Below are positions 11,721-35,887 of a stretch of 35,887 nt of DNA, piece after piece. How positions within the stretch are numbered: the stretch's first letter is position 1; each line of letters begins with the position of its first letter. The DNA is taken from NCBI GenBank assembly GCA_026401075.1, contig JAPLNQ010000101.1:1-35887 (forward strand), read 5' to 3'. This DNA comes from Planctomycetia bacterium (lineage in GTDB: Bacteria; Planctomycetota; Planctomycetia; Pirellulales; UBA1268). A model generated the notes under the pieces. It ran no database searches, was not told where the DNA came from, and worked only from the letters and a program-made list of their open reading frames with translations. Made by a program: the position numbers and the translations under genes.

Positions 11721-11745
11721 GTGGCGGCAAGTTTTAAACTTGTCC
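11721..11745 (+). repeat. Intergenic palindromic repeat, copy A1 (GTGGCGGCAAGTTTTAAACTTGTCC)
   Basis: Contains CAAGTTT-T-AAACTTG palindrome; same pattern at six other intergenic sites in the window. Confidence 0.75.
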
Positions 11746-11762
11746 GTGTCTCGACGCGGATT

Positions 11763-11787
11763 CCACAAGTTAAAAACTCGTGGCCAC
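11763..11787 (-). repeat. Intergenic palindromic repeat, copy A2 (reverse complement GTGGCCACGAGTTTTTAACTTGTGG)
   Basis: Inverted relative to A1, 17 bp away. 11762-11797 is an exact 36-nt inverted match to 35852-35887. Confidence 0.8.
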
Positions 11788-11871
11788 GGGTCGAACTTCG
11801 TCGGCCACGTCGATCGAGTCTATGCTGAATCCTTGCGAACGCCTTAGGCTGGCAGCATTCCAGGAGCGATC

Positions 11872-14305: not shown

Positions 14306-14321
14306 GCGGTGCCGGGAAACA

Positions 14322-14344
14322 ACAAGATGCAATCTTGTCGCCAC
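14322..14344 (-). repeat. Intergenic palindromic repeat, copy B1 (ACAAGATGCAATCTTGTCGCCAC on +)
   Basis: Arms ACAAGAT/ATCTTGT, spacer gca; reverse complement GTGGCGACAAGATTGCATCTTGT fits the family consensus. Confidence 0.75.
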
Positions 14345-14358
14345 GGGGAGTCTTTCAC

Positions 14359-14383
14359 GTGGCAGCGAGTTTGTAACTTGCTG
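14359..14383 (+). repeat. Intergenic palindromic repeat, copy B2 (GTGGCAGCGAGTTTGTAACTTGCTG)
   Basis: Aligns with GTGGCCACGAGTTTTTAACTTGTGG at other loci; diverges from B1 with the GTGGC ends facing each other. Confidence 0.65.
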
Positions 14384-16578: not shown

Positions 16579-16603
16579 GTGGGGACAAGATTGCATCTTG
16601 TCC
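16579..16603 (+). repeat. Intergenic palindromic repeat, copy C (GTGGGGACAAGATTGCATCTTGTCC); perfect 9-bp stem
   Basis: GGACAAGAT-TGC-ATCTTGTCC at 16583-16603, between two convergent stop codons. Confidence 0.8.
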
Positions 16604-26354: not shown

Positions 26355-26705
26355 TCATGTCAACCCGCAGATGAGGCTTGTCCCGGTGCGGCGATTCTCC
26401 CGCATGATGCAGCAGAGTTCGTCGCCGCCGGGCGAGCGGAACACGGAGGGCTCGCAGGGATCTTTTCCACCAAGTGTCGTGCCATCGCAGGCCATGACAG
26501 GATCCGACCAGGTGAACCCGCCGTCGCGGGTGACCGACTGGAGCACCTGAAGATCGGCATCCTTTCCCCCTGCGCCCCGGTGGAACATACCGAGCGTCGA
26601 GCCATCCTTCAGTGGCACCAGGCTGGAGAACGTCATCACGTTGCGGAACGGGGCATCGCTGGCGAGGGGCGTCGAAAGTGGCGGCTCCTCACGCCAGGGA
26701 TATGA
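26355..26705 (-). pseudogene. Truncated sialidase/BNR-repeat protein remnant lacking both termini
   Basis: Frame reads (no start) [78 protein letters not shown]...[25 protein letters not shown] then ICGLT*. Sialidase-like text runs upstream of the first possible start to the hairpin at 26703. Confidence 0.75.
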
Positions 26706-26783
26706 AAAGGGGACGCAGCTCTTTTCTTCATCCGTGCGCTCCGTCTGGTGAAAGGTGAAGAAAAGAGCTGCGTCCCCTTTTCA
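26703..26783. repeat. Perfect inverted repeat: 28-nt arms, 25-nt loop
   Basis: 26703-26730 tgaaaaggggacgcagctcttttcttca; 26756-26783 tgaagaaaagagctgcgtccccttttca. Confidence 0.95.
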
Positions 26784-35765: not shown

Positions 35766-35781
35766 GACCAGGAGGGGCACG

Positions 35782-35805
35782 GCAAGATGCGATCTTGCCG
35801 CCACG
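35782..35805 (-). repeat. Intergenic palindromic repeat, copy D1 (GGCAAGATGCGATCTTGCCGCCAC on +)
   Basis: Arms GGCAAGAT/ATCTTGCC, spacer gcg; followed by CGCCACGGGG as at copy B1. Confidence 0.75.
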
Positions 35806-35861: not shown

Positions 35862-35887
35862 GTGGCCACGAGTTTTTAACTTGTGGA
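35862..35887 (+). repeat. Intergenic palindromic repeat, copy D2 (GTGGCCACGAGTTTTTAACTTGTGGA), cut by window end
   Basis: 36-nt exact reverse-complement identity of 35852-35887 to 11762-11797. Confidence 0.85.

Follow-up and report, generated by a model that had tools for sequence, protein, structure and literature searches.

The window, a stretch of 35,887 nucleotides that makes up the entire contig C66 of an uncultivated planctomycete (G000), carries seven short palindromic units at four intergenic loci. All of them had been claimed from the sequence-only reading of this DNA, and we recovered each one with slightly shifted edges. The expected head-to-head pair after leuB consists of a type A unit, i.e. 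a GTGG foot and a hairpin, at 11721-11745 on the plus strand (GTGGCGGCAAGTTTTAAACTTGTCC) and a type B unit at 11763-11787 on the minus strand (GTGGCCACGAGTTTTTAACTTGTGG). Separated by a spacer of 17 bp, the two form a 67-bp REPIN (11721-11787) that lies 3 bp past the stop codon of leuB, a gene assigned by profile match (TIGR00169, 452.8 bits). The plus-strand flank beyond unit B (11788-11811, GGGTCGAACTCCTTCGGTC-like; 50-nt inverted repeat, 92%) is common to many copies. Two further units, an AT-core variant at 14320-14344 (minus strand, GTGGCGACAAGATTGCATCTTGTTG) and one at 14359-14383 (plus strand, GTGGCAGCGAGTTTGTAACTTGCTG), are divergent and form no facing pair; one of them is trailed by the apparent outer foot of a decayed partner. 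A lone plus-strand unit at 16579-16603 (GTGGGGACAAGATTGCATCTTGTCC) sits close to the ends of two genes: the stop codon of one, of the exo/endonuclease family, precedes it by 6 bp, and the other, a PfkB kinase gene on the opposite strand, ends 9 bp away. The remaining two are located at 35780-35804 (minus strand, GTGGCGGCAAGATCGCATCTTGCCG) and at 35862-35887 (plus strand, type B), the latter reaching the contig end.

Each unit is composed of an unpaired GTGG foot and a hairpin with a 9-bp stem and a 3-nt loop. Besides the commonest types A (GTGGCGGCAAGTTTTYAACTTGTCC) and B, there are types in which the outer stem letters are altered jointly (CAAC/GTTG, GGAC/GTCC, GGGC/GCCC, CAGC/GCTG, CCGC/GCGG, CGGC/GCCG), and some swap T-A for A-T within the stem. 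In 42 selected distinct units, a set from which the most degenerate units were excluded and to which three units from other planctomycetes were added, 97.6% of the stem cells were paired compared to 82.1% in shuffles, and double changes occurred in six of the nine stem pairs. The unselected set of all 68 distinct units from two genomes behaved alike: the three outer stem pairs were paired in 173 of 204 cases (120 ± 5 when shuffled), and each base of the GTGG foot was retained in 66-67 of the 68. Published definitions (PMC6006769 and PMC3733652) place the foot of a GTAG/GTGG-type REP on the 5′ side of a short hairpin, at a distance of 0-2 nt, and this is the arrangement found here. The units are chiefly arranged in inverted pairs whose inner gap measures 16-18 bp (52 cases), such a pair being present in 43 of 62 clusters in G000. 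Thus, the common unit is a REPIN, an inverted REP doublet around a short spacer. Tandem A units often precede the pair, and single units and tandem heads also exist. With DNA parameters, the 11.7-kb pair folds into one long hairpin of −16.7 kcal/mol (z −4.9).

Control-level copy numbers, equal frequency inside coding sequence and absence beyond the window had been named beforehand as outcomes that would speak against a dispersed family, and none of the three was observed. The pattern GTGGCNNCNAGNTNNNANCTNG has 178 + 177 = 355 exact matches in the genome (4,155,231 bases in 301 contigs, 93% complete), so that copies are abundant outside the window, and the reversed control has 0. A position-weight scan of 690 kb returned 128 units at a score with zero reversed-sequence matches. 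In these 690 kb, only three of 62 clusters lie within genes predicted by a simple codon-usage caller, which classed 84% of this DNA as coding; high copy number and extragenic location are thus combined as in other REPs. Of the other clusters, 25 are in convergent gaps, 22 in tandem and 5 in divergent ones, and 7 are at the edges of stretches, compared to 7.4 convergent, 30.8 tandem and 13.8 divergent expected from intergenic length. Within tandem gaps the median distance from cluster to upstream stop is 42 bp. The stretches had been picked for holding copies, which biases densities but does not account for the orientation preference. A bias towards 3′ ends and convergent gaps is also reported for REPs in PMC3733652.

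The family is unevenly distributed within the genus. Exact-pattern copies number 355 in G000, 40 in G002, 28 in G004, 10 in G001 and 0 in G003, so that gain, amplification and loss can be read within one genus. Sampled relatives in other genera gave single matches at most, and a pattern search across the phylum found 0 matches in 393 other genomes. Among the matches listed for GTDB species genomes, most fell in MAGs of the same genus as G000, and a handful came from two groundwater planctomycetes and one Gemmataceae MAG; in these latter copies the foot is kept, the loops are similar and the stems partly different. A MAG titled Candidatus Kuenenia stuttgartiensis (CAMCQY records; L176, L182, L185, L190, L192) has a G+C content of 64-66% and contig coordinates that match those of G001, and its title looks wrong.

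Comparison with the syntenic sister species G002, which is about 90% identical (82-93% over flanks), reveals presence and absence of units, with inexact boundaries. At least one unit is present in both genomes at 5 of 21 comparable syntenic sites, and the other 16 are without any copy in G002. The window units at 14320-14344, 14359-14383 and 16579-16603 are among the clean empty sites. No target-site duplication was seen, nor could an exact insertion boundary be fixed. A CAAGCCC-type repeat occurs in 8 of the 16 empty G002 counterparts, compared to 8% of all G002 gaps and 28% of its convergent gaps, so that both families occupy like slots.

As the sequence-only reading had stated, there is no transposase in the window. 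It had proposed to look for a Y1/RAYT gene flanked by the same unit, and exactly this is found elsewhere in the genome, at G000:C142:13640-14344 (= L256:1264-1968). The query that exposed it was L253, a related RAYT of another planctomycete that is itself flanked on either side by GTGGC-footed REPs. The encoded protein of 234 aa carries the motifs NHVH, FWQHE and DYVEYNP and scores 82.4 bits with the NCBI model of REP-associated tyrosine transposases (NF047646, cut-off 80). Its sole PDB match is 4er8, labelled TnpArep (E 9e-5, 25 bits). Nine units matching the dispersed family surround the gene, four upstream and five downstream; the start codon is 52 bp away from the nearest upstream unit, and the first downstream unit falls within the 3′-terminal part of the reading frame. 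The gene is single-copy, with one strong match in the 93% complete assembly. In most of the 29 RAYT relatives with fetched DNA, GTAG/GTGG-footed hairpins were found near the gene. Other planctomycete REP-RAYT pairs, e.g. L225 and L253, served as positive controls for the hairpin scan. The Pfam model Y1_Tnp (PF01797) misses the C142 gene with a score of only 14.7 bits. An early reading of the units as an orphan family without transposase, based on the Pfam Y1 search, ended with its discovery, and RAYT surveys relying on that model will undercount.

No close homologue of the C142 RAYT was detected in G001, G002 and G004, which hold 10-40 copies each in assemblies that are 72-93% complete (G004 72%). 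Faster decay of copies in G002, considered as a sign of RAYT loss, was not borne out: in regions selected for strict matches, the fraction of exact master units was 0.55 in G002 and 0.52 in G000, and that of clusters with an intact pair 0.64 and 0.69, respectively, so that G002 is not clearly more decayed.

Alternatively, the units might be selected, immobile regulatory hairpins of the host, acting as bidirectional terminators or stabilisers of mRNA 3′ ends. The strong convergent-gap and 3′-end bias and the potential of a doublet to fold into one long hairpin (DNA parameters) would suit such a role. However, a sister that is 90% identical lacks the units at most sites, and the stems of the listed copies, judged by eye, are not followed by the T-run of an intrinsic terminator. 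Fixed regulatory hairpins would also leave the unpaired GTGG foot and the crowding of units around the RAYT gene unexplained. We therefore consider this explanation very improbable as a primary one. A hairpin role can hold as a secondary effect of mobile units, and the host may draw some benefit from them.

Even less probable is a bystander role of the C142 gene, with another Y1 gene moving the family in trans. The Pfam model finds two genes in G000, on C255 and C222, both intact and Y1/RAYT-like. Yet each has its own unrelated palindrome (AATGGGGACGGGAGCGAATTT and AAACGGTGCCTGGCACCAAAT, respectively), and the GTGGC unit is absent nearby. The C222 gene (L036:2890-3700) carries AAACGGTGCCTGGCACCAAAT on both sides. 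The sequence GGTGCCTGGCACC has 12 occurrences in the sample of G000 and none in that of G002. The class-3-like Y1 genes of G001 and G002 were likewise rejected as mobilisers, as their flanking repeats are CAAGCCC-type. Finally, a MITE with terminal inverted repeats, mobilised by a classical DDE-transposase insertion sequence, would match a unit of about 67 bp in which a short spacer separates two inverted ends. Both ends, however, are covarying hairpins in their own right, units also occur singly and as tandem heads, and a target-site duplication was not seen; that the gene flanked by identical units encodes a Y1 RAYT nearly refutes this alternative.

Taken together, covarying GTGG-footed hairpins, inverted pairs, intergenic 3′-end bias, empty sites in the sister and a unit-flanked RAYT uphold the initial suggestion of a mobilised REP/BIME-like element. 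With a probability of roughly 0.93, the units represent a REP/REPIN family, mostly of inverted doublets, with its own cognate RAYT. It is a new REPIN family of an already known kind of element, the REPIN-RAYT system, and adds a complete REPIN-RAYT pair in Planctomycetota. Judging from sequence, the C142 RAYT very probably spreads the units. Most likely a HUH-type Y1 nuclease/transposase, the single-copy enzyme would recognise, in single-stranded form, the hairpin and its unpaired GTGG guide, cut at the GTGG foot, and move or copy the doublet in trans to other sites. Copies would survive mainly between the 3′ ends of genes, where insertion is presumably least harmful.

The REPIN-RAYT system of Pseudomonas fluorescens (PMC3116915, PMC8049555) shares the inverted hairpin doublets, the conserved G-rich foot, hundreds of copies and a single-copy RAYT, and its group I 16-mer also starts with GTGG. 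In contrast, the planctomycete family belongs to another phylum, has another stem and spacer, displays an AT-rich stem core in a genome of 66% G+C, and often has A-units in tandem before one B-unit. According to PMC3733652, REPs of the GTAG superfamily, including the GTGG variant GTAG-20 from Opitutus terrae, likewise possess an unpaired GTRG foot and a stem of 6-9 bp, form dimers and show the same positional bias; the planctomycete stem differs in sequence, and the family is absent from those of the 24 families that were compared. E. coli-type TnpAREP (PDB 4er8) and its REP/BIME have the HUH and DY-x-x-NP motifs and a tetranucleotide REP foot in common with our pair, whereas similarity is low (25 bits) and the planctomycete RAYT contains extra residues between the N-terminal motif and the HUH core. 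The REP GTGGCACCGGCGTCCCGCCGGTG of the groundwater planctomycete G488 (L253) has the GTGGC foot in common and flanks a related RAYT (38% identical) on both sides, but its stem sequence is unrelated.

The G000 RAYT occupies the gap between convergent msrB and argF, genes that were named by reading their proteins. In G002, the corresponding gap contains a class-3-like Y1 gene accompanied by CAAGCCCGAAGCGC repeats, the label 'class 3' being assigned from the description in PMC6006769. Such a gene, likewise accompanied by CAAGCCCGAAGCGC repeats, also adjoins argF in G001, at a contig end with msrB out of view, and the gap of G003 has class-3-type repeats with the Y1 gene absent (loci compared: L256, L299, L300, L277). 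In eight further genera of this family, the 1.5 kb on either side of argF yielded no Y1 relative. By a rough estimate (3 x 2 Y1 genes over about 550 convergent gaps), sharing of the gap by chance has a probability of about 1%. The 70 bases upstream of the RAYT and of the class-3-like gene resemble each other to a degree matched in 1 of 500 shuffles, a likeness that may merely reflect a shared promoter consensus. Tentatively, the gap might be a common home of competing Y1 systems, in which one REP-RAYT system was replaced by an unrelated one within the genus while the genome-wide repeat populations shifted along, although we find this rather doubtful. If true, such a same-site exchange bears on how RAYTs persist or get replaced.

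Other repeats accompany the family. At 26703-26783 of the window, a 25-nt spacer separates the arms of a perfect inverted repeat of 28 nt (TGAAAAGGGGACGCAGCTCTTTTCTTCA), which belongs to a second dispersed family with 12 matches in the G000 sample, mostly as inverted pairs. The segment 26284-26780 (about 497 bp), which includes most of this repeat, is missing at the syntenic place in G002. Stretches of 160-230 bp between units (L085, L081, L092, L068), examined for a transposase, turned out to be another, longer intergenic repeat (GCTCGTCGCCGGCGGATTCTGCT...) that bears REP units (L081:11121-11377, L085:3193, L092:124-309, L068:13815-14006). At the same point of this repeat, a unit is present in L068 and L092 and none in L085. 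At L051:18494-18560, a REPIN is nested within a member of the GGGGACGGGAGCGA repeat family.
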